A stretch of 64,000 bases of DNA, taken from assembly GCF_006874475.1 (NCBI RefSeq), contig NZ_VIRM01000004.1, positions 62,001 to 126,000 on the forward strand, in the 5' to 3' direction. The position numbers and the translations under genes are program-made. Below the pieces are notes generated by a model, which was not told the origin of the DNA, did not search any database, and worked only from the letters and a program-made list of their open reading frames with translations. Below, in pieces: positions 26,755-41,414 of this stretch (position 1 is its first letter; every line of letters begins with the position of its first letter). The DNA comes from Microbispora hainanensis. GTDB lineage: Bacteria; Actinomycetota; Actinomycetes; Streptosporangiales; Streptosporangiaceae.

Positions 26755-27630
26755 TTAGTCAGACAGGTCGTCGAAGCCGTCGAAACCGCCGAAGGCGGCG
26801 CCGTACCGGACGCACACCATGCGGGCCACGGACTCGTGCGCGCCGAGGGGCTCGGCGCACCCGGCGCCGATCGAGTCGGCGGCCGCCGTGATCCGGTCGA
26901 GGTCGGTCTCGGGGCCGATGACGTAGGGCACCATGGCGAGCCGGTTGGCGCCGATGTTGCGCAGGCGCTCGGCGGCGTCGCGCACGCTCGGCTGGCCGTC
27001 CAGCGCGGCGGGGACGACGGGGAGCGTCAGGCGGGCGGCCAGCAGGACGGCCGTCGCGTCGGCGCCACGGGCGGCCTCGTCGCCCCCGGCGGTCGCGACG
27101 ATGATCCCGTCGACCGGCGACGAGACGTTGAACAGGCGCATCCGGTCGGCGCGGGCCAGGCCCGCCTCGGCCAGGCGCACGTGCAGGGCCTCGGCCAGCA
27201 GCGGATGCGGCCCGAGCGGCTCGGTGATCCGCACCGCGGCCTCGCTCTGCGTCACGGCGTCCCGTACGGCGCGCAGCACGCGCGGATGGGGCCCGGTGAC
27301 GAGCGGGACGACCACCGCGGCCGGTCCGTCCGCCGGCCGCTGGGCGGCGATGGACGCGAACTCCTTGGTGAGATCGGCGCCGCCGTCGGCCAGCGAGACG
27401 ATACGAAGGTCGATCTGCGGGTTGTCGAGCCTGACGACGGAGGCGACCTCCATGGCCACGTCACCGCTCGGGCCCGCCGGATCGCCGGCCTTGCCCGGCA
27501 CCGCCAGGACCAGGGCAGGCGCGTCAGGCGGCAGGTCGGCGGGGAGGGGCCGTCTGTGGCGGCCGCCCCCAAACCGCGGAGAGCGCTCTCTGGTGGGGAG
27601 CTTCGGCGGGTCCTCGTGACCTTCGTTCAC
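26755..27630 (-). CDS. CbiX/sirohydrochlorin-chelatase-like protein lacking the N-terminal metal ligand
   Basis: This 291-residue protein has two CbiX-like halves. Family chelatases insert Co, Fe or Ni into sirohydrochlorin using histidines, the first normally in a HGSR-type motif. Here that position reads LVLAVPGKAGDPAG, without histidine. TGPHPRV near residue 120 and GPHPLLAEAL near 150 are retained. The C-terminal half ends with NIGANRLAMVPYVIGP. No siroheme or cobalamin genes are nearby. The protein may be a diverged chelatase or a binding protein. The ATG is the only plausible start at this end. The adjacent gap leads to the LacI operon. Confidence 0.7.
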   Translation of the reverse strand: MNEGHEDPPKLPTRERSPRFGGGRHRRPLPADLPPDAPALVLAVPGKAGDPAGPSGDVAMEVASVVRLDNPQIDLRIVSLADGGADLTKEFASIAAQRPADGPAAVVVPLVTGPHPRVLRAVRDAVTQSEAAVRITEPLGPHPLLAEALHVRLAEAGLARADRMRLFNVSSPVDGIIVATAGGDEAARGADATAVLLAARLTLPVVPAALDGQPSVRDAAERLRNIGANRLAMVPYVIGPETDLDRITAAADSIGAGCAEPLGAHESVARMVCVRYGAAFGGFDGFDDLSD

Positions 27631-27723: not shown

Positions 27724-27815
27724 TTGACGCTCTCCTGAGGACCCGGTTTGATATGGACTCATCCGGCCGTAAACGTTTACAGATCGTTGCACGTTACCGG
27801 CCGGTAAACGATTAC
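27724..27815 (+). promoter_or_regulatory. Promoter and twin LacI-type operators of the ADP-ribosylglycohydrolase operon
   Basis: TTGACG at 27724-27729 is a likely -35 element, with TTGATA (27748-27753) or an overlapping hexamer as the -10. Immediately downstream are the perfect palindrome GTAAACGTTTAC (27769-27780) and the near copy GTAAACGATTAC (27804-27815), 35 bp apart and in the same orientation. The central CG is typical of LacI-family sites, and the position blocks transcription of the operon. Autoregulation by the LacI protein is the simplest reading. Confidence 0.75.
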
Positions 27816-27843
27816 AGGACACTCTCTCCCAAGTGAGGTTCCG

Positions 27844-28887
27844 TTGACCGAGGGTCCCACGATCACCACGATCGCGCAACGCGCCGGTGTGTCGATCGCC
27901 TCGGTGTCACGTGTGCTCAACGGGCTGCCCACGCGCGAGGACACCGTGCGGCGTGTCATGCGCGCGGCCGACGAACTGGGCTACGTGCCCAACTCGGTCG
28001 CCCGCTCGCTCCGCAACCGCCGCACCGACCAGATCGCCTTCGCGATGGCCGACATCGGCAACCCGGTCTACGTGGCCATGGTGCGCGAGATCCAGCCGCT
28101 GCTGAAGGCGGCGGGCTACCGGCTCCTGATCCACTCGACGGACGGCGAGGCCGAAGACGAGCTCGGCGTGCTGCGCGGGCTGCGCGAGCGCTACGTGGAC
28201 GGCCTCATCATCAGCCCGCTGCGCGGCGTCACCGAGGAGCACGTCGAGGCCATCGTCGCCGCGCGCGCCCCCGTCGTGGTCATCGGCGCGCTGCCGGACG
28301 ACATGCCGGAGGGCGCGCTGGTCGACAACGTGCGCACCGACTCGAGAGCCGGCGTGCGGCTCGCGCTCGACCACCTGCACACCATCGGCAGGCGGCGCAT
28401 CGGCTTCCTCAACGGCCCGCTCGACACCGTTCCCGGCGCCGCCCGCGCCGCCGCCTACCGGGAGGCGCTGGAGGCGCTCGGCCTGCCGTACGACGAGGAC
28501 CTCGTCGAGGTGGGCGACTTCTACCGCGACAGCGGCGCGCGCGCCGCGCGGGCACTGCTGTCGCGCGTGCCCGGCGTCGACGCGCTGATGTGCGCCAACG
28601 ACCTCATCGCGCTCGGCGCGCTCGACGTGCTGCGCGAGCAGGGCAGGGACGTCCCCGGCGACGTGGCGGTGGTCGGCATGGACGACACCGACCTCGCCTC
28701 GGTGACCTGGCCGACGCTCACCAGCGTCTCGCTCGGGTCGGCCGAGCGCGGCCGGGCGGCGGCCGGGCTGCTGCTCGACCGGCTGCAGAACGGCCCGCGC
28801 GAGCCGCGGGTGTCGGTCGTGCGGCCGAGCCTCACCGTCCGGGGCTCCACCACTCTTCCGCCGGCCTCGCCGGGAGGTGCCCGATGA
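27844..28887 (+). CDS. LacI-family transcriptional regulator
   Basis: This 347-residue repressor has a LacI helix-turn-helix at residues 5-30 (TIAQRAGVSIASVSRVLNG), a hinge helix (NSVARSLRNRRTDQIAFAM), and a periplasmic-binding-protein-like effector domain with ANPV/NPVY-type and CANDLIALGALD motifs. It opens the operon and overlaps the first permease by four bases. It probably binds the GTAAACG boxes just upstream and releases them when a sugar or ribosyl ligand is present. The start is a TTG preceded by GTGAGG. Confidence 0.93.
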   Translation: MTEGPTITTIAQRAGVSIASVSRVLNGLPTREDTVRRVMRAADELGYVPNSVARSLRNRRTDQIAFAMADIGNPVYVAMVREIQPLLKAAGYRLLIHSTDGEAEDELGVLRGLRERYVDGLIISPLRGVTEEHVEAIVAARAPVVVIGALPDDMPEGALVDNVRTDSRAGVRLALDHLHTIGRRRIGFLNGPLDTVPGAARAAAYREALEALGLPYDEDLVEVGDFYRDSGARAARALLSRVPGVDALMCANDLIALGALDVLREQGRDVPGDVAVVGMDDTDLASVTWPTLTSVSLGSAERGRAAAGLLLDRLQNGPREPRVSVVRPSLTVRGSTTLPPASPGGAR

Positions 28888-29789
28888 CCGCTGTAGCCGA
28901 GCGGCCGTACGGCCGCGCCGGAGGCGGGCCGCGACGCGGGCCCCTGTCGGGGAGCGGGCTCACCCTCCTGCTCCCCGCGCTCGTGCCGGTGCTGCTGTTC
29001 AGCGTGGGCCCGCTGGTCTACGGCATCCTGCTGGCCTTCACCGACGCGCGGTCCGGCCGCAACACCGAGACCTCGTTCGTGGGCCTGGCGAACTTCGTGG
29101 AGCTGCTGTCGGACGGCGACTTCTGGGAGTCGTTCCGGATCGGCATGGTCTGGGGCCTGTCGGTGACCGTGCTGCAGTTCCTCGCCTCGCTGGGGCTCGC
29201 GCTGCTGCTGAACCAGGACCTCCGCCTGCGCGGCGTCGCCCGGGTGCTGGCGGTCGTGCCGTGGGCGATGCCGCCCGTGGTGGTCGGCCTGATGTGGCGG
29301 CTCGTCTATCACCCGGACGCGGGCCTGCTCAACGGCCTGTTCGGCTCGGACGTCGACTGGCTGCACGACTTCTCCCTCGCGCTGCCCGCGGTCATCGTCG
29401 TGGGGGTCTGGACCGGCATGCCGCAGACCACGGTCGTGCTGCTCGCCGGCCTGCAGAACGTGCCCAGGGAGCTCTACGAGGCGGTCAGCGTCGACGGCGC
29501 GGGTGCCTGGCGGCGGTTCTGGAACGTCACGCTGCCGCAGCTGCGGCCCGTGATCGTGGCCATCACCTCACTCGACTTCGTGTGGAACATCAACCAGTTC
29601 AGCCTGGTCTACGTGCTCACCCAGGGCGGGCCGGGCGGGCGGACGAGGCTGCCGATGCTGTTCGCGTACGAGGAGGCGTTCCGATACGGCTTCTTCGGGT
29701 ACGCCGCGACGCTCGGCGTGGCGATCACGATCGTCGTGCTGGCCGTGCTGGGCCTGTACCTGTGGCGGCAGGCGCAGGAGGGCAACTGA
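28884..29789 (+). CDS. Carbohydrate ABC transporter permease (CUT1, MalF/UgpA-like)
   Basis: This 301-residue inner-membrane permease has six helices. The EAA motif that docks the ATPase is visible near residue 205 (ELYEAVSVDGAGAWRRFWNVTLPQL). The ATG overlaps the LacI stop as ATGA and has GGAGGTG upstream. It pairs with the permease that starts 1 bp after its stop, and with the lipoprotein at 30641. No ATPase gene is present in the operon; actinomycete CUT1 systems commonly share the MsiK ATPase encoded elsewhere. Confidence 0.94.
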   Translation: MTAVAERPYGRAGGGPRRGPLSGSGLTLLLPALVPVLLFSVGPLVYGILLAFTDARSGRNTETSFVGLANFVELLSDGDFWESFRIGMVWGLSVTVLQFLASLGLALLLNQDLRLRGVARVLAVVPWAMPPVVVGLMWRLVYHPDAGLLNGLFGSDVDWLHDFSLALPAVIVVGVWTGMPQTTVVLLAGLQNVPRELYEAVSVDGAGAWRRFWNVTLPQLRPVIVAITSLDFVWNINQFSLVYVLTQGGPGGRTRLPMLFAYEEAFRYGFFGYAATLGVAITIVVLAVLGLYLWRQAQEGN

Positions 29790-29790
29790 C

Positions 29791-30609
29791 ATGACGCGTG
29801 CGCTGAAATATCTCGCCCTGCTGGGATATGTCGTCTTCCTGGCGTTCCCGCTGCTGTGGCTGCTGTCCACGGCGCTGAAGACTCCGCAGGAGATGGCCGC
29901 CCTCGATCCCACGTGGATCCCGCGCCGGCCCACGCTGGCCAACTTCGCCGACGCCTTCGCTGAGCAGGACCTGGTCGGCGCGGGGCTGCGCAGTCTCGTC
30001 GTCGCGGTCGCCACCGCCCTGATCACGGTGGCGCTCGCGCTGCCCGCGGCGTACGCGCTGGCCCGCTTCCGCGGCGTGGCCGGCAAGATCGCGATCGGCT
30101 GGGTGCTGGTCAGCCAGGTCTTCCCGGTCGTCCTGATCATCATTCCGCTGTTCATGGTGCTGCGGCGGCTGGAACTGGTGAACACCCTCGCCGGGCTCAC
30201 GGTCGTGCACGTCACGTTCGTCATGCCGTTCGCGCTGTGGATGCTGCGCGGATATGTGCGGGCGGTGCCGCGCGAGCTGGAGGAGGCCGCGTCCGTGGAC
30301 GGCGCGGGGCGGCTGCGCGCACTGGCCGCCGTCGTCGCGCCACTGCTCGCGCCCGGCGTCGTCGCGACGCTCCTGTTCAGCTTCATCTCGTCCTGGAACG
30401 AGTTCATGTTCGCCCTCGTGATCCTCAAGGATCCCGAGGTGGAAACCCTTCCGCTGACGCTGGTGCGTTTCGTCGGCCCGGAAGGGGTCGCCCGGCTCGG
30501 CCCTCTGGCGGCGGCGTCGCTGCTCGCGACCGTGCCGAGCCTCGTCTTCTTCGCGATCATCCAGCGGCGCCTGCGGTCCGGCCTGATGGCCGGGGCCGTC
30601 AAGGGCTGA
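29791..30609 (+). CDS. Carbohydrate ABC transporter permease (CUT1, MalG/UgpE-like)
   Basis: This 272-residue partner permease starts with a short cytoplasmic tail. The MalG-type EAA loop is near residue 170 (ELEEAASVDGAGRLRALAAVVAPLLAPG), followed by SFISSWNEFMFALV. It is translationally coupled to the preceding gene. Together the two form the channel for the sugar-like substrate of this operon. Confidence 0.94.
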   Translation: MTRALKYLALLGYVVFLAFPLLWLLSTALKTPQEMAALDPTWIPRRPTLANFADAFAEQDLVGAGLRSLVVAVATALITVALALPAAYALARFRGVAGKIAIGWVLVSQVFPVVLIIIPLFMVLRRLELVNTLAGLTVVHVTFVMPFALWMLRGYVRAVPRELEEAASVDGAGRLRALAAVVAPLLAPGVVATLLFSFISSWNEFMFALVILKDPEVETLPLTLVRFVGPEGVARLGPLAAASLLATVPSLVFFAIIQRRLRSGLMAGAVKG

Positions 30610-30640
30610 CCGGCATGGCGACCTTCGATAGGAGTTCTCA

Positions 30641-31954
30641 ATGAAGAGATTGGGTGCCGCGCTGGCTGTGGCGGCGGTCGCGCTCACAGCGGCCGCGTGC
30701 GGGAGCGGCGGCGGTGACGGCGGTGACGGCGGCGGCGCGTCCGGGGAGCCGGTGAAGCTGCGCTTCCTCAGCCTGGCCTGGCAGAAGGAGTCGATCGAGG
30801 CCAACAAGCAGATCGTCGCCGACTGGAACACGGCCAACCCGAACATCCAGGTCGAGTACGTCCAGGGGAGCTGGGACAACGTCAACGACCAGCTCGTGAC
30901 GTCGTTCGAGGCCGGCGACCCGCCGGACGTCATCCACGACGACTCCCCGGCGCTGTCGAGCTTCGCCTCGCGGGGCTTCCTGCTCGACCTCACCGGCAAG
31001 GTCCCCGCCGACCTGCAGAACGACATCCCGCAGGCCGCGTGGGACACGGTCACCTTCTCCGACGGCAAGAGCGGCCAGGGCGTGTACGGCGTGCCGTTCC
31101 TGCAGGAGTCGCAGGTGCTCATCGCCAACAAGAAGCTGCTCGACGACACCGGTGTGCGCATGCCCACCCCGGACTCCCCGTGGACGTGGGACGAGTTCGC
31201 CGACGTGTCGAAGAAGCTCACCAAGAAGGGCGCGTACGGCGTCGCCTGGCCGATGAAGTCGCCGGTCAACAAGGTGCTCAACCTGGCGCTCAACTTCGGC
31301 GGCACCTTCTTCGACACGAAGGACGGCAAGACCACGGTGAAGGTCGGGCCGCAGGAGCGCGAGGTGCTCCAGCGCATCCACGACCAGCTCTACGCCGACA
31401 AGTCGGCCGACCCGGCGGCGCTGGGCATGGGCACCGCCGACCCGCTGCCGGGCTTCTTCGCAGGCAAGTACGCGATCGTCCCCGCCGGGGTGTACCTGCG
31501 CCAGCAGGTCGCCGAGCAGGCGCCGGGCGGGTTCGAGTGGGTCACGCTGCCCCCGCTGAAGGGGCAGACCTCCCAGCAGGGCGCGGTCTCGCAGACGCTG
31601 TCGGTCGCGGCCGACAGCAAGCACCCCGACGAGGCGCTGAAGTTCATCGCCTACTTCCTGAACGGCCCGAACCAGGCGAAACTGGCCAAGGGTGACTGGC
31701 TGCTGCCGACCAGCACGTCGGCGGCGAAGGACCCCGCGCTCACCACGGAGGAGAACGGGTGGGACGTCGCCACCGCCTCGGCGAAGGATCTCGTCGTCGC
31801 GCCGTTCCTCAAGGTGAACGGGTTCGACGAGTGGAAGAGCAAGGTGGCCACGCCGGCGATGCAGGAGTACTTCGCCGACAAGATCAGCCTGGACGAGCTG
31901 GCCACGCGGCTCGTCGAGGAGGGGAACAAGGTGCTGGAGCGGTACAGCCGTTGA
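30641..31954 (+). CDS. Carbohydrate ABC transporter substrate-binding lipoprotein
   Basis: This 437-residue family-1 solute-binding lipoprotein has a signal peptide ending in the lipobox TAAAC (cysteine at residue 20), then a Gly/Asp-rich tether and the SBP_bac_1 fold (VKLRFLSLAWQKESIEANKQIV; NPNIQVEYVQGSWD; YGVPFLQESQVLIANKKLLDD). It captures the compound imported by the two permeases upstream. Most relatives bind oligosaccharides or glycosides; this one is genetically tied to glycohydrolases of the ADP-ribosylglycohydrolase family. GGAG lies 7 bases before the ATG. Confidence 0.94.
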   Translation: MKRLGAALAVAAVALTAAACGSGGGDGGDGGGASGEPVKLRFLSLAWQKESIEANKQIVADWNTANPNIQVEYVQGSWDNVNDQLVTSFEAGDPPDVIHDDSPALSSFASRGFLLDLTGKVPADLQNDIPQAAWDTVTFSDGKSGQGVYGVPFLQESQVLIANKKLLDDTGVRMPTPDSPWTWDEFADVSKKLTKKGAYGVAWPMKSPVNKVLNLALNFGGTFFDTKDGKTTVKVGPQEREVLQRIHDQLYADKSADPAALGMGTADPLPGFFAGKYAIVPAGVYLRQQVAEQAPGGFEWVTLPPLKGQTSQQGAVSQTLSVAADSKHPDEALKFIAYFLNGPNQAKLAKGDWLLPTSTSAAKDPALTTEENGWDVATASAKDLVVAPFLKVNGFDEWKSKVATPAMQEYFADKISLDELATRLVEEGNKVLERYSR

Positions 31955-32937
31955 CCTCCGTACGTGACCGCGCCCGGGGCTGTCTGCTCGGCCTCGCCGC
32001 CGGCGACGCCCTGGGCGCCCCCGCGGAGAACCTCTCTCCCGAACAGATCGCCGCGCGGTGGGGCGTGCTCACCGAGATCGAGCGCGGCGGCACCGACGAC
32101 ACCGAGTACACGATCTTCGCCGCCACCGTGCTCCTGCGCCACGGTCACGCGCTCACCTCCGAGGACGTGGCGCGGGCCTGGCGCGAGGAGATCGTGGCGC
32201 GGCTCGACGGGCCGATGCGCGGCGCCGGGTTCTCCGAGCTCGGCACCGTCGAGGCCCTGCGCCGCGGCCTGGAGCCGCCGCTGACCGGCCGGTGGCACGC
32301 CCACGGCTGGTCCGACGGCCTGGCCATGCGGGCCGCGCCGTACGGGATCTTCGCGGCGGGCGACCCGGACGAGGCGGCGCGGCTGGCGGAGACCGACGGG
32401 CGGGTGAGCCACACCGGCGAGGGGATACTCGGCGGCCGGGCGGTGGCCGCGGCGGTCGCGGTCGCGATGACCGGCGCCCCGCCCGAGGAGGTGGCCGGGG
32501 CGGCCCTGCGGGCGGTGCCGGAGGACTCCTGGACGGCCCGCAGCCTGCGCGCGGCGCTCGACGTCGCCGCCCGCACCCCCCGCCCCCTCCTGGCACGCGC
32601 GCTTCACGACTCCTTTGCGCGTGCGCTTCACGACACGGTCGTGGTCAAGCACTACCCGTGGACCGACCTGGCGCCCGAGGCGGTGGCCCTCGCGTTCGCC
32701 GCCTACATGGCGGGCGGCGGGGAGATCGAGGCGTCGGTCGTCACGGCCGCCAACCTCGGCAGGGACGCCGACACCACCGCCGCCGTCGCCGGGGCTCTCT
32801 CGGGAGCGGGCCGCGGTGAGGTGGCGGTGCCCGCGCGCTGGGCCGGGCGCATCGGCCCGGTGGCGGGCCGCTGCCTGCCCGTGGTCGCCGGGCGGGACAT
32901 CCGCGACGTCGCCGACGAGATCGTGAAAGGAATGTAG
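31951..32937 (+). CDS. ADP-ribosylglycohydrolase-family protein A (catalytic residues intact)
   Basis: This 328-residue DraG/ARH-family (PF03747) protein has the helical fold's metal-binding signatures: GLAAGDALGAPAE near residue 14, TDDTEY near 49, and the C-terminal NLGRDADTTAAVAGAL near 270. These residues bind two Mg2+ ions and cleave N- or O-glycosidic bonds to ribose in known members. It begins at a TTG that overlaps the binding-protein stop, so it is tightly coupled. A duplicated R-A-L-H-D segment near residues 215-228 comes from an 18-bp repeat at 32593-32610 and 32617-32634. It is the first of four paralogs in a row. Its natural substrate is unknown. Confidence 0.88.
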   Translation: MTSVRDRARGCLLGLAAGDALGAPAENLSPEQIAARWGVLTEIERGGTDDTEYTIFAATVLLRHGHALTSEDVARAWREEIVARLDGPMRGAGFSELGTVEALRRGLEPPLTGRWHAHGWSDGLAMRAAPYGIFAAGDPDEAARLAETDGRVSHTGEGILGGRAVAAAVAVAMTGAPPEEVAGAALRAVPEDSWTARSLRAALDVAARTPRPLLARALHDSFARALHDTVVVKHYPWTDLAPEAVALAFAAYMAGGGEIEASVVTAANLGRDADTTAAVAGALSGAGRGEVAVPARWAGRIGPVAGRCLPVVAGRDIRDVADEIVKGM

Positions 32938-32943
32938 GACCAC

Positions 32944-33960
32944 ATGCCATCGGGGGACAGGCGGGACGGGCCGCACCGGCTCGACCGCGTGCGGGGGGCC
33001 TTCGTCGGCCTCGCCGCGGGCGACGCGGCCGGATGGCCGGCCGCCCGGCACCGGTCCACGCTGCTGGCCGGCTGGAGCAGGCGGCTGCACCGGGAGCTCG
33101 ACGCGTTCGCGGAGGAACACCAGGTCACCACACTGCCGGTGCCGTTCGCGCTGAACCAGCCGGTGGCGCCGCTGGCGGCAGGACCGTCGGACGACGCCGA
33201 GTGGCTGGCCTGGACGGCCCTGACCATCCGGGAGGACCGGGCGGAGGCGTTCGGCCGCCTCGCGGGCCGCGACGACGTCCGGGCGCGCATCTCGGTGTGG
33301 GCGGCGCTCGACAACCTGGCGGCGGGCAAGCGCCCGCCCGCCAGCGGCCACGACAACCCCCACCACTTCGACGACGCCGCGGCGGTGCGAGCCGTCGCCT
33401 TCGGCGTGGCCGGGCTCGATCCGCTGGAGGACGCGCGCGTCACTAACGCGGAGGACGGCGTGCTCGGCGCGGTCGCGATGGCCCGCGCGGTCGCGGCGCT
33501 GACGGACGGCGCCCCGATGGGCGAGGCGGTGGAGGCGGCGCTCGGCGCGCTGCCGCCGGACACGGCCATCGGGCACGCGGCGCGCGAGGCGCTCGCGGCG
33601 GCCCGGGCGGCGGGCTCGCCCTTCGCCGCGGTGCCGGCGCTGGACGCCGCCGTGCTCGACCACGTCTACAGCTACGGCGTCGCCGCCGCGCAGACCGTGC
33701 CGATCGCGCTGGCCCTCGCCGACGCCGCCGTCTCCTGCGGGCGGCCGCCGGAGGCGTTCGGCGCGGGCGTCTCCGCGGCGGCCTGCCTCGCGCCGGTCGC
33801 CGACTCCGCGCCCGCGCTCACCGGCGCGCTGCTCGGCTGCGCCGCGGGACACGACGCGCTGCCCGCCGCCTGGCGCGAGCGGGCCCGCGTCCTGGCCGGC
33901 TGCTGCCTGCCGGAGCTCGCGGGAACCGACCTGCTGGACATCGCCGGGCGGCTCGCATGA
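32944..33960 (+). CDS. ADP-ribosylglycohydrolase-family protein B, active site degenerate
   Basis: This 338-residue second family member keeps the first motif (GLAAGDAAGWPAA near residue 21) but has PSDDAEW where TDDT is expected. The C-terminal motif reads APVADSAPALTGALLG in place of a D-A/T-D-T metal site. Loss of these ligands suggests a non-hydrolytic or specialised subunit, perhaps paired with one of its neighbours. AGGACCAC precedes the ATG, 6 bp after the previous stop. The sequence is otherwise full length without frameshift, so it is probably retained for function. Confidence 0.8.
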   Translation: MPSGDRRDGPHRLDRVRGAFVGLAAGDAAGWPAARHRSTLLAGWSRRLHRELDAFAEEHQVTTLPVPFALNQPVAPLAAGPSDDAEWLAWTALTIREDRAEAFGRLAGRDDVRARISVWAALDNLAAGKRPPASGHDNPHHFDDAAAVRAVAFGVAGLDPLEDARVTNAEDGVLGAVAMARAVAALTDGAPMGEAVEAALGALPPDTAIGHAAREALAAARAAGSPFAAVPALDAAVLDHVYSYGVAAAQTVPIALALADAAVSCGRPPEAFGAGVSAAACLAPVADSAPALTGALLGCAAGHDALPAAWRERARVLAGCCLPELAGTDLLDIAGRLA

Positions 33961-34000
33961 CGCCCGGCACATCACGCGTACGGACAAGGGGGAGGACCGG

Positions 34001-35182
34001 ATGACGCCGCAGGAGGACCTGCCGGATGATGACCTGCTGGCCGATCGCGCCGTGGGGTGTGTGGCGGGCGCCGCGGTGGGCGACGCGCTCGGCGGGGCCA
34101 CCGAGGGGTGGACGCCCGAGCAGATCCAGGAGCGCTACGGGGGCCGGGTGCGCGGCGTCGTCCCTCCCTTCAACGAGGACTGGCGCAACGCCCGCCCGAT
34201 CGCGCCCTACCACAAGGGGGACGGCCACGTCACCGACGACACGTTGATGACGCACGCCCTCATCCGGGTGTACGAGCGGGTCGGCGGCCATCTGGACGCC
34301 TACGCCGCCGCCGAGCACCTGGTGCCCGAGATGATGGGCGAGAAGCGGTGGATTCCCGAGCTGGAGGCCGAGGCGCTGCCGCTCCACCGGGTGTTCCTCG
34401 CCGAGAAGTGGCTCGTGCTGCGGCTGCACTACGGCCACGCCGACCCCCGCGAGGCCGGGGTCGGCAACATCGTCAACTGCGGCGCGGCGATGTACATGGC
34501 CCCGGTCGGCGTCGTCAACGCCGGCGACCCCGACGGCGCGTACGCCGAGGCGATCGACCTGGCCGGGGCGCACCAGTCGAGCTACGGCCGTGAGGCGGCG
34601 GGCGTGCTGGCGGCGGCGGTCGCCGAGGCGATGCGGCCGGGAGCGACGCCCGACTCGGTCGTGGCGACCTGCCTGCGGCTCGCCCGCGACGGCACCAGAG
34701 CCGCCATCGACGCGGTCTGCTCGGCCGCCCGGGGCCTCGGCCACTGGGAGGGCTCCTTCGAGGCCCTGCGGGCCGCGGTCCGGCCGTACGACACGGTGGC
34801 CGACACCTACCGCGACCAGGGCCTCGGGGCGCGGCGGCCGAGCCGGCTGCACAGCATCGAGGAGCTGCCGCTCGCGCTCGCGTTCCTGGTGATGGCCAAG
34901 GGCGACTACCGCGAGACGGTGCTCGGCGGCGTCAACTACGGCCGCGACGCCGACTCCATCGCCTCGATGGGCGGGGCCGTCGCGGGGGCGCTCGGCGGGC
35001 GGGCCGCCGTCCCCGCCGAGTGGCTGGACCAGGTGGCGACAGCCAGTCGTACGGACCTGGTCGGGCCGGGGCTGGCGATCGCGGGCGTCGCGCGGCGGGT
35101 GCACCGGGCCGACCGGGAGCGCCGCCGCGCGCACGAGGCCGCCTTCGACGCCCTGCTCGCGCCGCGGGGAGACGCGCGATGA
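34001..35182 (+). CDS. ADP-ribosylglycohydrolase-family protein C (catalytic residues intact)
   Basis: This 393-residue family member has intact motifs: GAAVGDALGGATEGW near residue 22, VTDDTLMTHALIRVYE near 77, and the C-terminal VNYGRDADSIASMGGAVAGAL near 310. It has an insert near residues 95-180 (EMMGEKRWIPELEAEALPLH, then YGHADPREAGVGNIVNCGAAMYMAP) typical of a distinct subgroup, so its substrate may differ from that of protein A. GGGGGAGGACCGG forms a strong ribosome site before the ATG. It overlaps protein D by four bases. Confidence 0.88.
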   Translation: MTPQEDLPDDDLLADRAVGCVAGAAVGDALGGATEGWTPEQIQERYGGRVRGVVPPFNEDWRNARPIAPYHKGDGHVTDDTLMTHALIRVYERVGGHLDAYAAAEHLVPEMMGEKRWIPELEAEALPLHRVFLAEKWLVLRLHYGHADPREAGVGNIVNCGAAMYMAPVGVVNAGDPDGAYAEAIDLAGAHQSSYGREAAGVLAAAVAEAMRPGATPDSVVATCLRLARDGTRAAIDAVCSAARGLGHWEGSFEALRAAVRPYDTVADTYRDQGLGARRPSRLHSIEELPLALAFLVMAKGDYRETVLGGVNYGRDADSIASMGGAVAGALGGRAAVPAEWLDQVATASRTDLVGPGLAIAGVARRVHRADRERRRAHEAAFDALLAPRGDAR

Positions 35183-36552
35183 TCCGGCTGACGTGGGTGC
35201 AGCCGGAGGACCTCGTCGGCCACGAACTGCGGCAGGCGGACGAGGACGGCCGGGGAACGCTCCCCGAGGTGGCGGCCGTGCGCGAGCGCTGGCACGCCGC
35301 GGGCGGGCACGACGCGCCGCCCCGGGCGGGCGCCTCCGCCGGGCCCGCCCCCGAGGCGCTGCGCGCCCTGGCCGGGGAGCTGCTCGACGCGCTCGCGGCG
35401 ATCCCCTCGCCGCTGCCCGAGCCCTCGGGCCTCGAAGAGATCGTCGCGAGCTGCCCCGGCTGGCCTGACTCGCCCGGCGCCCGCCCACGGGTGCGGCCCG
35501 AGCCCGGGCGGGTCCTGGCCGCCTGGTGGGGGAGGGCGGCCGGCTGCCTCCTGGGCAAGCCGGTGGAGAAGATCCCCCGCGAGGGGATCAGGGCCATCGC
35601 CGAGGCGACCGGCAACTGGCCGATCCGCGGCTGGTTCACCGCGAAGGGGCTGCCGCCGGAGATCGCGGAGCGGTGGCCGTGGAACCGCCGCAGCGCGGCC
35701 ACCAGCCTCGCCGAGAACATCGACGGCGTGCCCGAGGACGACGACCTCAACTACGCGCTGCTCGCGCTCACCGTTATCGAACGGCACGGACGGGACTTCA
35801 CGACCGAGGACGTCGCGAAGACCTGGCTCGACGCGCTGCCCGCCGGGCGGGTCTTCACCGCCGAGCGGGCGGCCTACCGCAACCTGCTCGCGGGTCTCGA
35901 ACCGCCCGCGACCGCCGTTCACCGCAACCCGTTCAGGGAGTGGATCGGCGCGCTGATCAGGGCCGACGTGTACGGCTGGGCCAACCCGGGCGACCCCGCT
36001 ACGGCCGCGGTCTGGGCGTGGCGGGACGCCCGGCTCAGCCACGCGGCCAACGGGATCTACGGCGCGATGTTCGCCGCCGCCATGTGCGCGCAGGCCCTCG
36101 TGGCCGAAGGCGTGGACGAGGTGATCGAGGCCGGGCTGTCGGTCGTGCCGCCCGGCTCGCGCCTGGCGGAAGCCGTACGGCAGGCCGTCGCGGACGCCGC
36201 GGCGGAGCCGGACTTCGAGCGGGTCGTCGACCGGCTGTACGCGCGGCACGGCCACCTCCACTGGGTCCACACGGTCAACAACGCGGCGCTGCTGGCGGCG
36301 GCCCTCGTCCACGGCGCAGTCCACGGTGCCGGGGACTTCGCCGCGATCGTCGGCGCGGCCGTGGCCGGAGGCTGGGACACCGACTCGGCCGCCGCCACCG
36401 CCGGATCGATCGCCGGGGCGCTGACGGGCGGCGTCCCCGAGCGGTGGACCACCCGGGACCGGCTGGCCAGCAGCCTGCCCGGCTTCGACGGCATCTCCAT
36501 CGAGTCGCTCGCCGCCCGCACGCTCGCGCTGGGTGAGGGGGAACGACGATGA
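35179..36552 (+). CDS. ADP-ribosylglycohydrolase-family protein D (CLLGKPVE subgroup)
   Basis: This 457-residue member of a divergent subgroup has an N-terminal extension of about 110 residues, then AAGCLLGKPVEKI in place of the GDALG motif. It continues with VPEDDDLNYALLAL near residue 190 and GGWDTDSAAATAGSIAGAL near 395. The acidic residues that bind metal are present in the second and third motifs. It starts with an ATGA overlap of the preceding gene and is itself overlapped by the kinase gene. This subgroup is often found with LacI regulators and sugar importers, from general knowledge; its biochemistry is unknown. Confidence 0.85.
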   Translation: MIRLTWVQPEDLVGHELRQADEDGRGTLPEVAAVRERWHAAGGHDAPPRAGASAGPAPEALRALAGELLDALAAIPSPLPEPSGLEEIVASCPGWPDSPGARPRVRPEPGRVLAAWWGRAAGCLLGKPVEKIPREGIRAIAEATGNWPIRGWFTAKGLPPEIAERWPWNRRSAATSLAENIDGVPEDDDLNYALLALTVIERHGRDFTTEDVAKTWLDALPAGRVFTAERAAYRNLLAGLEPPATAVHRNPFREWIGALIRADVYGWANPGDPATAAVWAWRDARLSHAANGIYGAMFAAAMCAQALVAEGVDEVIEAGLSVVPPGSRLAEAVRQAVADAAAEPDFERVVDRLYARHGHLHWVHTVNNAALLAAALVHGAVHGAGDFAAIVGAAVAGGWDTDSAAATAGSIAGALTGGVPERWTTRDRLASSLPGFDGISIESLAARTLALGEGERR

Positions 36553-37460
36553 TCTCGGTGTTCGGCAGCGCCAACATGGACCTGGTGGCGTACGTCGCCC
36601 AGGCCCCCGGACCGGGGGAGACCGTCACGGGCCGGGAGTTCCGCACGATCCCCGGCGGCAAGGGAGCCAACCAGGCGATCGCCGCGGCCCGCGCGGGAGC
36701 CGACGTGGCCTTCCTCGGCGCCGTGGGCGACGACGCGTTCGGGCCCGGGCTGCGGGCCGCGCTCGCCGAGGCGGGCGTGGACACCAGCGGGCTGCGGGTC
36801 GTGCCCGGCCCGTCGGGCGTCGCCCACATCGTCGTGCAGGACGGCGGCGACAACTCGATCATCGTGGTGCCCGGCGCGAACGGCGCGGTCACCGGGCCCG
36901 CCGGGCGGGACGCGGAGGTCATCGCCCGGTCCGGCGCGCTGCTGCTGCAACTGGAGCTCCCGATGGACGCCGTGGTCGCCGCGGCCCACGTCGCTCGTGC
37001 TGCGTCTCCTGCTGGGGAGTCCCGGGCCGAGGTGATCCTGACCCCGGCCCCGGCGGTGCCGCTGCCCGCCGAACTGCTGGAGGCCGTCGACCTCATCGTG
37101 CCCAACGAGCACGAGGCGACGGCCCTCACCGGCCGCGACGACCCCGGCGACGCGCTGGAGGCGCTGCTCGGCCTCGTCCCCGAGGCCGTCGTCACCCTGG
37201 GCGCCCGGGGCGCCCTGTACGGCTCGCGCGACGGCGCCCGGCTACACCAGCCCGCCCTACCGGTGCGGGCGGTGGACACGACGGCGGCGGGGGACACCTT
37301 CGCGGCGGCGCTGGCCGTGGCCAGGACCGAGGGGCACGACCCGGCGCGGGCGCTGCGCTTCGCCTCGGCCGCCGCGGCCCTGTCGGTGCAGCGCGAGGGC
37401 GCCAGCACCTCCATGCCCCACCGCCACGAGATCGACCGCCTGATGGAGGAGGGACTGTGA
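36549..37460 (+). CDS. PfkB-family carbohydrate kinase (ribokinase-like)
   Basis: This 303-residue kinase has the ribokinase layout: the opening ISVFGSANMDLVAYV, the PfkB signature PGGKGANQAIAAARAGA near residue 35, and the catalytic-base motif TTAAGDTFAAALAVA near 240 with Asp in place. It would phosphorylate the sugar freed by the glycohydrolases, most simply ribose to ribose 5-phosphate. It overlaps protein D and the CoA-transferase by four bases each. Substrate specificity cannot be decided from sequence alone. Confidence 0.9.
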   Translation: MISVFGSANMDLVAYVAQAPGPGETVTGREFRTIPGGKGANQAIAAARAGADVAFLGAVGDDAFGPGLRAALAEAGVDTSGLRVVPGPSGVAHIVVQDGGDNSIIVVPGANGAVTGPAGRDAEVIARSGALLLQLELPMDAVVAAAHVARAASPAGESRAEVILTPAPAVPLPAELLEAVDLIVPNEHEATALTGRDDPGDALEALLGLVPEAVVTLGARGALYGSRDGARLHQPALPVRAVDTTAAGDTFAAALAVARTEGHDPARALRFASAAAALSVQREGASTSMPHRHEIDRLMEEGL

Positions 37461-38620
37461 CCGGGCCGCTCGACGGCGTACGGGTGATCGACGCCGCGAC
37501 GCTGTTCGCCGGGCCGACCGCGGCGATGCTGCTCGGCGACTACGGCGCGGACGTCGTCAAGATCGAGCACCCGCGCAGGCCGGACCCCTCGCGCGGGCAC
37601 GGGCCCGACGGGCTGTGGTGGAAGATGCTCGGCCGCAACAAGCGGACGATGACGCTCGACCTGTCCACCGAGGAGGGCCAGGACCTCATGGTCCGGCTCG
37701 TCCAGGACGCCGACGTGCTCATCGAGAACTTCCGCCCCGGCACGCTGGAGCGCTGGAACCTGTCCTGGGACCGGCTCAGCGCGGCCAACCCCGGCCTGGT
37801 GCTCGCCCGGGTCACCGGGTTCGGCCAGTTCGGCCCGTACGCCAGGCGGCCCGGCTTCGGCACGCTCGCCGAGGCGATGAGCGGGTTCGCCGCGATGACC
37901 GGGGAGCCGGACGCGCCGCCCACGCTGCCGCCGTTCGGGCTCGCGGACGGCATCTGCGCGCTGGCCACCGCGTTCGCCGTGATGACGGCCCTGCGGTCGG
38001 GGCGCGGGCAGGTCGTCGACCTGTCGATCATCGAGCCGATCCTGACCGTGCTGGGCGCCCAGCCGACCATCTACGACCGGCTCGGCGTCGTGCCTCCGCG
38101 CACCGGCAACCGCTCGGTCAACAACGCGCCGCGCAACACCTACCGGTGCCGCGACGGCTCGTGGGTCGCGGTCTCCACCTCGGCGCAGAGCATCGCGGAA
38201 CGCGTGATGCGCCTGGTCGGACGGCCCGACCTGGTGGACGAGCCGTGGTTCGCCACCGGCGCCGGCCGGGTGGCGCACGTCGGCGAGCTCGACGCGGCCG
38301 TCGCGGCGTGGGTCGGCGAGCGGACCCGCGAGGAGGTGCTGCGGGCGTTCGAGGAGGCGGAGGCCGCGGTGGCGCCGATCTACGACGTGCGCGACGTGCT
38401 GGCCGACCCGCAGCTGACGGCGCTCGACGCGGTGACCACCGTGGAGGACCCCGAGCTCGGCCCGCTGAGGATGCAGAACGTGATGTTCCGGCTGTCGGAG
38501 ACGCCGGGACACATCCGGTGGACCGGCCGTCCGCACGGCGCCGACACCGACGAGATCCTGCGCGGCCTCGGCCTGACCGGCGCGCAGATCGAGGCCCTGA
38601 GGGTCAAGGGAGTGGTGTGA
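37457..38620 (+). CDS. CaiB/BaiF-family (class III) CoA-transferase
   Basis: This 387-residue class III CoA-transferase moves CoA between carboxylic acids. Visible features are the opening LDGVRVIDAATLFAGP, the segment ADVVKIEHP near residue 30, and the catalytic aspartate in GLADGICALATAF near residue 161. The GTG start overlaps the kinase stop. In this operon it would activate the carboxylic acid released from the glycoside, or a derivative, as its CoA ester for the lyase encoded next. The acid is unknown; succinyl-CoA or acetyl-CoA is a likely donor by family analogy. Confidence 0.9.
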   Translation: MTGPLDGVRVIDAATLFAGPTAAMLLGDYGADVVKIEHPRRPDPSRGHGPDGLWWKMLGRNKRTMTLDLSTEEGQDLMVRLVQDADVLIENFRPGTLERWNLSWDRLSAANPGLVLARVTGFGQFGPYARRPGFGTLAEAMSGFAAMTGEPDAPPTLPPFGLADGICALATAFAVMTALRSGRGQVVDLSIIEPILTVLGAQPTIYDRLGVVPPRTGNRSVNNAPRNTYRCRDGSWVAVSTSAQSIAERVMRLVGRPDLVDEPWFATGAGRVAHVGELDAAVAAWVGERTREEVLRAFEEAEAAVAPIYDVRDVLADPQLTALDAVTTVEDPELGPLRMQNVMFRLSETPGHIRWTGRPHGADTDEILRGLGLTGAQIEALRVKGVV

Positions 38621-38639
38621 TGTCACAGGGTGATCGGGC

Positions 38640-39473
38640 ATGAGCGGCGCCGACGCCTCTGGTGTCCCTGCCGCGCCCCTGACCTGGTTGTACGTGCCCG
38701 CCGACCGCCCCGACCGGATCGGCAAGGCCCTGGGCGGCGAGGCGGACATGGTGATCGTCGACCTGGAGGACGCGGTCGCCCCGGAGAACAAGGACGTCGC
38801 ACGCGCCGGGGTGGTCGCCCTGCTGGCCACGCCGCGGCCGCGCGTGGAGATCCGGGTCAACGACGTCCGCACGCCGTACGGCCAGGCCGACCTGCACGCG
38901 CTCGGCACGCTGCTGCAGGGCAGCGGCGGCCTGCGCGTCCCCAAGGTGGAGTCGGCCGACGAGGTCCGCCGGATCGCCGAGGCCGTGCCGGGCGTGCCGC
39001 TGCGGCTGATCATCGAGTCGGCCCTCGGGCTGGAACGCGCCTTCGAGATCGCCACCGCCTCACCGGCCGTCGCCGGGATCGGCCTGGGCGAGGCCGATCT
39101 GCGCGCCGACCTCGGCGTGACCGACGAGGCGGGCCTGGCCTGGGCGCGTTCCCGCATCGTGGTCGCGGCCCGCGCGGCCGGGCTGCCGGCCCCCGCGCAG
39201 TCCGTGTTCGCGAACGTCCGCGACCTCGACGGCCTGGCCGCCTCCTGCGCCTCGGGCCGGGCGATGGGCTTTCGCGGCCGGGCGGCCATCCACCCCGTCC
39301 AGCTTCCGGTGATCGCGGCGGCCTACCGCCCGGCCAGGGAGGAGATCGTGGCGGCCCTGGAGGTCGTCTCCGCCGCCGACCAGGGTGCGGTGGCCCTCGC
39401 CGACGGTCGCTTCGTGGACGAGGCCGTCGTCCGCCAGGCCCGCCGCGTCCTCGCCGACGCCGGCGAGCACTGA
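38640..39473 (+). CDS. HpcH/HpaI-type CoA-ester lyase (citrate lyase beta / malyl-CoA lyase-like)
   Basis: This 277-residue Mg2+-dependent aldolase fold protein has LYVPADRPDRIGKAL near residue 17, DMVIVDLEDAVAPENK near 37, the metal-binding glutamates in IIESALGLERA and GLGEADLRADLG, and GRAAIHPVQL. Relatives cleave malyl-CoA, citramalyl-CoA or similar beta-hydroxyacyl-CoAs into acetyl-CoA plus a 2-oxoacid. It ends the operon and is followed by a strong terminator. Together with the CoA-transferase it forms an activate-and-split route for an organic acid. Confidence 0.9.
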   Translation: MSGADASGVPAAPLTWLYVPADRPDRIGKALGGEADMVIVDLEDAVAPENKDVARAGVVALLATPRPRVEIRVNDVRTPYGQADLHALGTLLQGSGGLRVPKVESADEVRRIAEAVPGVPLRLIIESALGLERAFEIATASPAVAGIGLGEADLRADLGVTDEAGLAWARSRIVVAARAAGLPAPAQSVFANVRDLDGLAASCASGRAMGFRGRAAIHPVQLPVIAAAYRPAREEIVAALEVVSAADQGAVALADGRFVDEAVVRQARRVLADAGEH

Positions 39474-39507: not shown

Positions 39508-39547
39508 CCGAGGCCGGGCGGAGTCATGATGCTCCGCCCGGCCTCGG
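39508..39547. terminator. Strong bidirectional hairpin terminator
   Basis: A 16-bp perfect stem (39508-39523 with 39532-39547) with an 8-nt loop separates the ADP-ribosylglycohydrolase operon from the convergent VWA gene. Confidence 0.85.
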
Positions 39548-39563: not shown

Positions 39564-41414
39564 TCACGGGCAGTTGCCGATGTCGCTCTCGGCGGAGGCC
39601 AGGACGACGTCGGTCTTGGCCAGGCCGAGGGCGTTGACGGTGACGTGGACCGCGTTGACGGTCAGGCCCTTGTCGGGCGTGGTGAACGGGATCTGCTCGT
39701 TGAGCACCAGCTTCACCACGCCGACGTTGACCGTGGTGTTGGGCGCGACGTTCGTGGGCGCCGAGATGACCACCGTGTTGCCGACCTTGAGGGAGGCGAT
39801 CGTCGTGGTCCCGCTCGATCCGGAGCAGGTGGTGGTGGAGCTCGACTTGATGGTCTTGAGGCTGATCACCGGGATGCCGGTGATCCCGATGGTCGTGTCG
39901 TCGATGGAGGCGGTGGCCTCGGACTTGCCGGGGAACTCGGTGGTGACGACCTTGGCGCACAGGGCGTGCGCGCTGATCAGCCCGCTGAGGGTGGCGGTGC
40001 AGGGCACCGAGGTGCTGCCGGACGACGTGGTGGAGACGGGGCCGGTGTCGGGGGTGCGGGCGATGTTGATCAGTTGCAGGCCGGCCAGGGAGGCGCCGGC
40101 GGTCAGGCCGTAGGCCCGTCCGGTCAGCCGCTGCGGCGTGACCTTGACCTCCTCGTCGCTGCACGGCGAGGTGACGGAGTTGTTGTCGGCGTCGCCGCTG
40201 TAGGTGGCGGTCCACCTATAGGTGCCGGCCGCGCCGATGGTCACGTCGCCGGACGCGGCGGTGCCGCTGTCGGACAGGTCGCCGGTGCGGGTGGCGATCG
40301 GCGTCGTGCAGTTGGTGTCGCCGGGTCCGAACAGCTCGAACTTGACGGTGCCCGTCGGGTGGTGGCCGCCGGACAGGGTCGCGGTGTCCGAGAGGTTCCC
40401 GCCCGCGGGCGTCTCGCCCGACGGGGTTGTGGTGATCTTCGGGGTCGCCTTCGGAACGTGCTCGGTGATCGTTTCGGTGAAGCCGGGCGACAGGACGTCG
40501 TTGATCAGGAAGTCCACCTTGCAGGTGAGGGTGCTTCCCGGCGCGGCTCCGTCGCCGACGGTGACCTTCTCGGAGAACGCGGCATCCTCGCCGCTGGTCA
40601 CCGTACGGCTGTCCGGGGTCAGGGAGACCGACAGGTCCGGGTCGCAGTCGCGCAGCTTGTGGGTGACCGTGACCGGCAGGTTGTGCAGGGCCGCGAGGAT
40701 GGTGTCGCTGACCTCCGAGGCGTTGAGGCCGGAGAACAGTTGCCCGTCCGTGGCTTCGGTGATCGCGGTCGCCTGCCCGGTCGAGTTCAGCCCGGCCAGG
40801 TCGAAGGCGAGCACGGTGATGTCGGCCGCCTGCAGGGCGCTGATCGCGTCGGCCAGCGAATGGCCGCCGCTGGGGTCGTGGCTGGGGGCGTCCCCGATCA
40901 GCAACACGATCCGGGTGCTGTCCGGCCGGAAGCCGACCGCCCCTGTGGCGACCTGATACAGGGCGCCGATGCCGTCTTCGGGGAAGTCGCCTCCGCCCGA
41001 CGCGGACAGCGAATTGATGCCGGCGGTGACATCGGCCGGGTCGGCGGTGAGATTCTGCGCCACCCGAAATGGAGTCGAATCGGCCGCGTCCTTGTATTCG
41101 GCGACCGCGAACCGAGCGTCCGGCTGCGCCGCGGCGATATTGGACAAAATGGTGTTCGCGTTGGTCCGCACGTTGGAGATGACTCCGCCCATGCTCCCTG
41201 TCGTGTCGATCAGGAAAGCGATATCCGGCTTGGGCGGCACGGCGGGAGTGGAGACGGTTTTGTCGATCGTCTTCGATTCGCCGGGGGCCAGGTCGAGCGT
41301 TACGTCGGCGGGGGTGACCCCGGGTGCGGCGGATGCCGTTCCCACCCCGGCGACCAGCGTCGCAGCGGCCGCCGCCGCGCACACGGCGGCCCGTAATCGT
41401 CGCGTCATCATCAC
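39564..41414 (-). CDS. Secreted VWA-domain protein with choice-of-anchor-P-type C-terminus
   Basis: This 616-residue secreted protein has a signal peptide (residues 1-30, ending ASAA). A von Willebrand A domain follows (residues 60-240) with a complete MIDAS motif DTTGSMGG near residue 70. Next come Ig-like beta-rich segments (GGNLSDTATLSGGHHPTG; GTYRWTATYSGD). The C-terminal choice-of-anchor-P-like region (RAYGLTAGASLAGLQL to SAESDIGNCP) lacks a sortase motif or membrane helix. Such proteins are thought to act in adhesion or surface assembly. The start may be the GTG at 41414 or the ATGs at 41411 or 41408, all downstream of AGAAGGAA. It is not linked to any neighbour. Confidence 0.85.
   Translation of the reverse strand: MMMTRRLRAAVCAAAAAATLVAGVGTASAAPGVTPADVTLDLAPGESKTIDKTVSTPAVPPKPDIAFLIDTTGSMGGVISNVRTNANTILSNIAAAQPDARFAVAEYKDAADSTPFRVAQNLTADPADVTAGINSLSASGGGDFPEDGIGALYQVATGAVGFRPDSTRIVLLIGDAPSHDPSGGHSLADAISALQAADITVLAFDLAGLNSTGQATAITEATDGQLFSGLNASEVSDTILAALHNLPVTVTHKLRDCDPDLSVSLTPDSRTVTSGEDAAFSEKVTVGDGAAPGSTLTCKVDFLINDVLSPGFTETITEHVPKATPKITTTPSGETPAGGNLSDTATLSGGHHPTGTVKFELFGPGDTNCTTPIATRTGDLSDSGTAASGDVTIGAAGTYRWTATYSGDADNNSVTSPCSDEEVKVTPQRLTGRAYGLTAGASLAGLQLINIARTPDTGPVSTTSSGSTSVPCTATLSGLISAHALCAKVVTTEFPGKSEATASIDDTTIGITGIPVISLKTIKSSSTTTCSGSSGTTTIASLKVGNTVVISAPTNVAPNTTVNVGVVKLVLNEQIPFTTPDKGLTVNAVHVTVNALGLAKTDVVLASAESDIGNCP

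Follow-up and report, generated by a model that had tools for sequence, protein, structure and literature searches.

The 64,000-nucleotide window of Microbispora hainanensis analysed here (contig NZ_VIRM01000004.1, positions 62,001 to 126,000) contains a predicted operon that combines a LacI-family regulator, a sugar-type importer, four proteins of the ADP-ribosylglycohydrolase (ARH) fold, a ribokinase-like enzyme and a coenzyme A (CoA) transferase/lyase pair. We propose, with a probability of about one half, that this operon, under a LacI repressor with a single target, serves the import and catabolism of a ribosyl (cis-diol furanosyl) conjugate, the acid half of which would be degraded via CoA. 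The acid half is the weaker part of this reading. Gene anatomy, protein families, operators and recurrence in other genomes, all read directly from the sequences, carry the proposal. The features are listed below with their positions in the window.

27769-27780, no strand: predicted LacI-type operator 1, GTAAACGTTTAC
27804-27815, no strand: predicted LacI-type operator 2, GTAAACGATTAC
27844-28887, plus strand: LacI-family regulator, TTG start, predicted single-target repressor (PF00356/PF13377)
28884-29789, plus strand: CUT1 permease 1 (PF00528, BPD_transp_1)
29791-30609, plus strand: CUT1 permease 2 (PF00528, BPD_transp_1)
30641-31954, plus strand: lipoprotein-type solute-binding protein (PF01547, SBP_bac_1)
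31951-32937, plus strand: ARH1, predicted canonical ARH-fold hydrolase, TTG start (PF03747, 194 bits)
32944-33960, plus strand: ARH2, degenerate ARH paralogue, predicted pseudo-hydrolase (PF03747, 74 bits)
34001-35182, plus strand: ARH3, predicted canonical ARH-fold hydrolase, very conserved (PF03747, 164 bits)
35179-36552, plus strand: ARH4, predicted ARH-fold hydrolase with an N-terminal extension of about 110 residues (PF03747, 162 bits, residues 114-420)
36549-37460, plus strand: PfkB kinase, ribokinase-like (TIGR02152, 292.5 bits)
37457-38620, plus strand: class III (CaiB/BaiF) CoA-transferase (PF02515, CoA_transf_3, 397 bits)
38640-39473, plus strand: CitE/RipC-type CoA-ester lyase (PF03328, HpcH_HpaI)
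39508-39547, plus strand: terminator-like hairpin, 15-pair stem (z −4.5 against shuffles)

The eleven genes of the predicted operon occupy 27844-39473 on the plus strand with junctions between −4 and +40, five of them 4-base overlaps and five gaps of 1-40 bases. Exact copies of GTAAACGNTTAC were present at two sites in the 8.7 Mb genome, operators 1 and 2 only, and the backwards control of the motif gave zero sites in the same genome. Upstream of orthologous actinobacterial lacI genes the motif was found exactly in 38 of 56 cases, and in 52 of 56 when one mismatch was allowed (lacI genes of less than 50% identity or with less than 150 bases upstream were excluded), against 43 of 3350 random windows from the same loci. 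It was not found in any of 11 rhizobial lacI upstream regions. The best NCBIfam model for the regulator was ribose RbsR, with 180.5 bits against a cut-off of 382. The promoter scan found no sigma-70-like promoter. At the other end, the hairpin is located 3' of the last gene, ahead of a convergent gene; it has no U-tract and was not among the hits of a consensus terminator scan, which requires a run of T. A preliminary description, made from the letters of the window, had placed eleven one-strand genes between a LacI operator and a 3' terminator. Gene positions and Pfam families confirmed the genes, the operator was resolved into two palindromes that are unique in the genome and conserved in actinobacteria, and the terminator holds as a 15-pair stem without a U-tract.

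The arrangement recurs. In a search of 200 genomes of the family, 53 had a match to ARH4, of which three with weak matches (G003, G028 and G048) were excluded to leave 50 core genomes. The order lacI, permeases, binding protein and ARH1-4 was conserved on one strand in 33 of 40 fetched family loci, the remaining seven being two partial loci (L054, L060) and five that are only distantly related (L063-L067). When named genomes were scanned with the ARH3 alignment, at least 577 relatives were confirmed, the best 80 of which were kept; 64 of these loci were complete, and 16 with short flanks were excluded. The nearest ARH3 among the matches listed for named genomes was that of M. rosea (97%). ARH4 was located beside ARH3 in 63 of the 64 complete loci. 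The full gene set of the window was present in 19, and everything except the CoA pair in 16, of which 15 were from Nonomuraea. Another 16, all from Streptomycetaceae, kept ARH1-4 and the CoA pair in an importer-less locus, ten with the kinase and six without it. Only the kinase was missing in six, four had an extra gene for a glycosidase-like/FGE protein (two of these without ARH1, ARH2 and the kinase) and three were reduced.

This extra gene codes for a protein of about 690 residues with a C-terminal FGE-sulfatase domain and lies just 5' of the CoA-transferase gene in L053 (11096-13174), L060, L106, L115, L116 and L120. Its first 468 residues had no Pfam match, and the label glycosidase-like was therefore given by eye only; the mean predicted local distance difference test (pLDDT) value of its AlphaFold2 model was 49. 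As for genomic position, 22 of the 80 named loci lay between a gltB-like gene and an lgt-like gene; in most of these, DsbA-, trpA- and trpB-like genes were located further out. The names of these genes were assigned by reading the sequences. LacI and the importer were also found at this glt-trp site in five (L122, L124, L125, L139 and L143). One genome of Streptomyces scopuliridis (L137, L145) has two ARH clusters, one with LacI and importer and one, at the glt-trp site, with neither.

The four ARH-fold proteins are at the centre of the operon. Enzymes of this family act at C1 of ribose with two metals, their motif residues comprising a gate glutamate and the ligands of the two metals. All four exceed the curated PF03747 cut-off of 26.2 bits (74-194 bits). 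Motif conservation was counted in alignment rows, to which some genomes contribute two because the family set and the named set overlap. ARH1 showed the Glu, TDD and DxDT motifs in 97 of 97 rows, ARH3 the Glu, TDD and DxD[TS] motifs in 109 of 109, and ARH4 the Glu, a DDD (Asp for the Thr of TDD) and DxDS in 111 of 111. ARH2 retains DD and the second Asp of the last motif, but its gate position was Glu in none of the 92 rows with a residue there (mostly Ala or Gly) and the first Asp of the C-terminal DxD was present in 0 of 93 (mostly Leu or Val). Judged from these residues, ARH2 is a predicted pseudo-hydrolase that would belong to the ARH/DraG superfamily by fold only. ARH1 and ARH2 were present or absent together in all 64 complete named loci (60 with both, four with neither). 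In a tree of 59 proteins, obtained by a short search, ARH1-4 fell into three lineages, ARH3 grouping with the rhizobial ARH3 and ARH4 on the side of a rhizobial long ARH; these lineages speak against a recent tandem duplication as the origin of all four. An AlphaFold2 model of ARH3 had the ARH fold (pLDDT 78), with 1t5j (MJ1187) and DraG as best PDB matches. The four distinct glycohydrolases of the preliminary description were thus retained in part: ARH1, ARH3 and ARH4 keep a canonical or near-canonical site, whereas ARH2 has lost part of it, and the four are paralogues, yet of three lineages and not a single recent expansion.

Membership in PF03747 could also mean that the four proteins remove ADP-ribose from proteins, nucleic acids or small molecules, the operon being a signalling or defence module, and passages of PMC9411070 list SCO2028-2031 of Streptomyces coelicolor among uncharacterised DraG/ARH homologues; SCO2028-2030 are also listed in a passage of PMC5087735. 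We consider this very improbable and set it aside. The DraG equivalog TIGR02662 (cut-off 337) was not reached, the best score being 63.8 bits for ARH1, and neither was the Tri1 immunity hydrolase model NF041672 (cut-off 490; best 46.2 bits, ARH3). ADP-ribose is not supported as a substrate. The operon also contains no transferase or toxin gene and does contain a sugar-type importer and a kinase. In the relevant passage of PMC13036486, SCO2028 and SCO2030, by position the orthologues of ARH1 and ARH3, had no detectable activity on one substrate, U-alpha-ADPr.

The kinase scored just below the ribokinase cut-off (299.65 bits for TIGR02152), and 16 of the 18 solved matches listed, the best ones included, are ribokinases, which agrees with the ribokinase-type kinase proposed earlier. 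Both results make ribose the most probable sugar. That the ARHs release a different cis-diol furanose (apiose, for instance), to be phosphorylated by a kinase of shifted specificity, appears unlikely. Such a sugar would fit the narrowly missed cut-off, the dispensability of the kinase, absent from 17 of 64 loci, the large glycosidase-like (by eye) protein with its FGE-type domain at some loci, and a C-terminal extension of the rhizobial second ARH with a weak, sub-threshold Laminin_G match; it does not fit the ribokinases that dominate the solved matches.

Class III CoA-transferases use a catalytic aspartate, and D164 of the transferase was invariant in an alignment of 19 sequences, in keeping with its assignment to this class. 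Its best NCBIfam models were succinate-glutarate, formyl-CoA and mesaconate CoA-transferases, all far below their equivalog cut-offs. For the lyase, the best NCBIfam model was RipC (NF038242) with 185.6 bits, below the cut-off of 375, and the best solved match was 3qll, a citrate-lyase-like chain. By family only, it is predicted to be a lyase of carbon-carbon bonds in CoA esters. From the RipC-like lyase and the best models of the transferase, the acid may be guessed to be a dicarboxylate of the malate or citramalate type.

The tie between the CoA pair and the ARH genes was assessed in several genome sets. Among the 64 complete named loci, transferase and lyase were found together in 45, including all 16 importer-less Streptomycetaceae loci, and singly in none. 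In 150 genomes of one genus (that of G242, inferred to be Streptomyces), ARH3 was present in 110 and the CoA-transferase in 115; the two were at most 6 kb apart in 101 of the 110 ARH3 genomes. In the other ARH3 genomes the transferase was apart or on another contig (four) or without a match at E 1e-110 (five), and among the 40 genomes without ARH3 it was present in ten. Of 296 genomes sampled evenly across the phylum, including that of the window, eight contained ARH3, with the CoA-transferase start within 4 kb in all eight; 22 more genomes had the transferase without ARH3. That the CoA genes might never be found beside the hydrolases elsewhere, which the preliminary description had named as a refutation of its association of the two, was therefore contradicted by the 45 loci and 101 genomes of this co-occurrence search.

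Copies outside the locus point the same way. Of 17 named genomes considered that are without the CoA-transferase at the locus, all 17 have a copy of 66-71% identity elsewhere. In the 50 core genomes of the family the transferase was at the locus in 32 (six with a second copy), elsewhere only in 17 and absent in one, with one genome (G071) counted as lacking it at the locus on account of a match at a contig edge. The transferase was thus present somewhere in 49 of 50 core genomes versus 29 of 150 other family genomes, and 17 of the 18 genomes without it at the locus hold a copy elsewhere versus second copies in 6 of 32 with it. Fisher tests of these comparisons gave 6e-25 and 1.5e-7 with relatedness ignored. 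The elsewhere-only pattern extends over seven genera, the contig-edge case aside. In all ten stretches examined, the off-locus transferase adjoins a lyase. Three of these have a neighbouring gene from one DctM-like TRAP cluster (Pfam run on one of the three), which fits a carboxylate substrate, and six have a sugar-type ABC importer beyond an opposite-strand TetR-type gene (one set Pfam-confirmed). These copies support, but do not prove, the link between the CoA pair and the ARH genes.

The importer consists of one SBP_bac_1 protein and two BPD_transp_1 permeases, as in CUT1-type ATP-binding cassette (ABC) importers, and the operon contains no ATPase gene. Nine matches to UgpC/MsiK-like ATPases were found elsewhere in the genome, the best at 63%, and the rhizobial versions described below have UgpC in the operon; both observations favour the shared MsiK-type ATPase that had been suggested, and the co-regulation of importer and hydrolases, also claimed earlier, is supported. 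Importer-less loci raise the question of whether the ARHs salvage or repair a ribosylated metabolite made by the cell itself, the importer being a later addition or a reuptake system. This form, with ARH1-4 and the CoA pair retained, accounts for 16 of the 64 complete named loci, and of 20 genomes tested for permease 1 five had no match anywhere at E 1e-60, all of them among the 16 genomes with an importer-less locus. The other 11 of the 16 have a close permease 1 elsewhere in the genome, however, LacI, operators and importer are retained in many lineages, and 12 of 12 rhizobial plasmid loci have the importer, which makes salvage decidedly unlikely. Most of the 13 stretches fetched for importer-only loci of Streptomyces lay amid general chromosomal genes and gave no clue to the substrate.

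A search of plasmid proteins with ARH3 gave 23 records, mostly rhizobial, and twelve rhizobial-type loci were examined (L180-L183, L187-L192, L194 and L195). All twelve contain LacI, two permeases, a binding protein, ARH3 and UgpC; a second ARH, of 700 residues, is present in all but L182 (eleven loci). The CoA-transferase and lyase are located downstream in six (L183, L188, L190, L191, L192 and, as a broken copy, L189), the transferase alone in L194 and a ribokinase in L180; L195 has a divergent ribokinase and L187 a ribokinase fragment. Compared with the window, LacI and the permeases of L183 were 23-32% identical, ARH3 43%, the CoA-transferase 45% and the lyase 30%, and its binding protein had no match to that of the window at 1e-5. 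ARHs of 700 residues with an extra C-terminal half are found at L183 13132-15231 and L186 10061-12163; in the former this half gave the weak Laminin_G match.

Several observations weigh against a single pathway for a ribosyl acid. The nearest solved relatives of the binding protein, Lmo0181 (5f7v) and an arabino-oligosaccharide binder (6rjy), are general oligosaccharide binders. The kinase is missing from 17 of the 64 complete named loci and the CoA pair from 19, of which 15 are from Nonomuraea. Four family loci (L038, L039, L062 and L069) have the CoA-transferase without a lyase, with only lyases of 44-49% identity elsewhere, and four of the twelve rhizobial loci (L181, L182, L187 and L195) have neither CoA genes nor a ribokinase downstream. 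The off-locus pairs have their own regulators and transporters, so that their link to the ARH core is one of co-occurrence only. The co-occurrence counts themselves ignore relatedness, and the family set shares some genomes with the named set. Finally, a tree suggests that actinobacteria and rhizobia recruited the CoA-transferase independently; since the approximately unbiased (AU) test gave no support (p 0.161), this is not claimed.

Some of these points would be explained by two neighbouring functions, an ARH, importer and kinase core for a riboside with a non-acid aglycone (e.g. a nucleoside), and a CoA pair that burns another acid of the same habitat. Besides the loci without the pair and the independently equipped off-locus copies, this is favoured by close CoA-transferases that occur without ARH in amidohydrolase/cyclase/PrpD clusters, and by ARH-kinase-importer sets on plasmids of Mycolicibacterium (L184) and Deinococcus (L186), in which LacI, importer, ARH and ribokinase are present and the stretch shown contains no CoA genes. 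Against it speak the close coupling of ARH3 and CoA-transferase in one genus (101 of 110) and the off-locus copies of the transferase that make up for its absence from the locus. We regard two functions as doubtful, though a more serious rival than a different sugar.

Related gene sets were seen in other contexts. The CoA-transferase clusters (L235-L249, actinobacteria) repeatedly combine an IclR-like gene (by eye), a CoA-transferase, often a lyase, a cyclase-family gene and MmgE/PrpD with an allantoinase/dihydropyrimidinase-like amidohydrolase and varied transporters. The gene sets of L235-L249 would serve an acid pathway, though no named one was recognised that could give a clue to the substrate. 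At L064 (4309-9742) an ARH4-like gene is accompanied by genes for CUT1-type permeases and inosine-uridine hydrolase-like, ThuA, PhyH and GH36 proteins. BMP-family importers are often linked to nucleosides, and an ARH-family gene (L196, 8425-9813) lies directly 3' of a BMP-family ABC importer on a plasmid of Rhizobium sp. ACO-34A. The operon of the window is itself flanked by genes for a VWA-domain protein (39564-41414, minus strand) and a CbiX-like protein (26755-27630, minus strand).

Parts of the operon resemble known systems. The ribose-scavenging locus rus of Bacteroides thetaiotaomicron combines nucleoside/ARH-type hydrolases with ribokinases; unlike the present operon, it relies on SusCD outer-membrane uptake and is not known to have a CoA-transferase or lyase. 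In itaconate (Rip) degradation, a CoA-transferase feeds a citramalyl-CoA lyase of the RipC/CitE type, which is likened to the operon by the best NCBIfam model of our lyase and its citrate-lyase-like best PDB match, whereas the operon is without a hydratase gene and its lyase and transferase score far below the equivalog cut-offs. In its passages on the Escherichia coli yegTUV operon, PMC10819704 describes YegW/GgaR as a single-target repressor over a transporter, a predicted ADP-ribosylglycohydrolase and a putative sugar kinase, states that none of these genes has a clear function and links the operon to ADP-glucose/glycogen. Compared by gene content, the two share an adjacent ARH, PfkB kinase, transporter and repressor, whereas yegTUV has a nucleoside-type transporter of the major facilitator superfamily (MFS), one ARH, a GntR regulator and no CoA genes. 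Modules of ARH, kinase and transporter that are controlled by a single-target repressor are thus known, from these passages on yegTUV and from rus. New are the two core ARHs of different lineages together with the pair of ARH1 and degenerate ARH2, the association with a CoA-transferase and lyase, and the wide distribution. A literature search found no description of this operon.

In S. coelicolor, gltB presumably lies beside the SCO2028 cluster. By position between gltBD and lgt-trpAB, SCO2028-2031 would correspond to ARH1-4 and SCO2032-2033 to the CoA pair; this correspondence is drawn from gene order only, with reference to passages of PMC9411070 and PMC5036795. The literature search found no publication that mentions SCO2032 or SCO2033.

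For a ribosyl conjugate with a carboxylic aglycone, we infer the direction of import, ribose as the sugar, the joined acid and every reaction from the gene families. The lipoprotein and the two CUT1 permeases would take up the conjugate with energy from a shared MsiK-type ATPase whose gene lies elsewhere. ARH3 and ARH4, as the core pair, and ARH1 would break glycosidic bonds to the anomeric carbon of the pentose; ARH2, conserved but non-canonical, would be the partner of ARH1. Released ribose would be converted to ribose 5-phosphate by the ribokinase-like enzyme. The class III transferase would form the CoA ester of the aglycone, probably a beta-hydroxy dicarboxylate of the malate or citramalate type, and the CitE/RipC-type lyase would split this ester to acetyl-CoA (or propionyl-CoA) and a 2-oxo acid. 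Of the pathway put forward in the preliminary description, the link between importer, hydrolases, ribokinase-like kinase and CoA pair is supported, whereas the loci that lack the CoA pair or the kinase speak against a single rigid pathway.

In a wider view, which we offer tentatively and at well below even odds, ARH-fold enzymes, otherwise known for erasing ADP-ribosylation, would form a widespread small-molecule ribosidase pathway for an abundant ribosyl-hydroxy-acid of soil and rhizosphere, with a pseudo-ARH partner and CoA-dependent cleavage of the acid, used by actinobacteria and rhizobia with different importers. The recurrence in both groups hints at a common food molecule. If true, the proposal predicts that a ribosylated acid is so common in soil that ARH3 has been retained in 110 of 150 genomes of one genus, and it would give a catabolic role to Streptomyces proteins (SCO2028-2031, by gene order) that are listed as presumed erasers of ADP-ribosylation.

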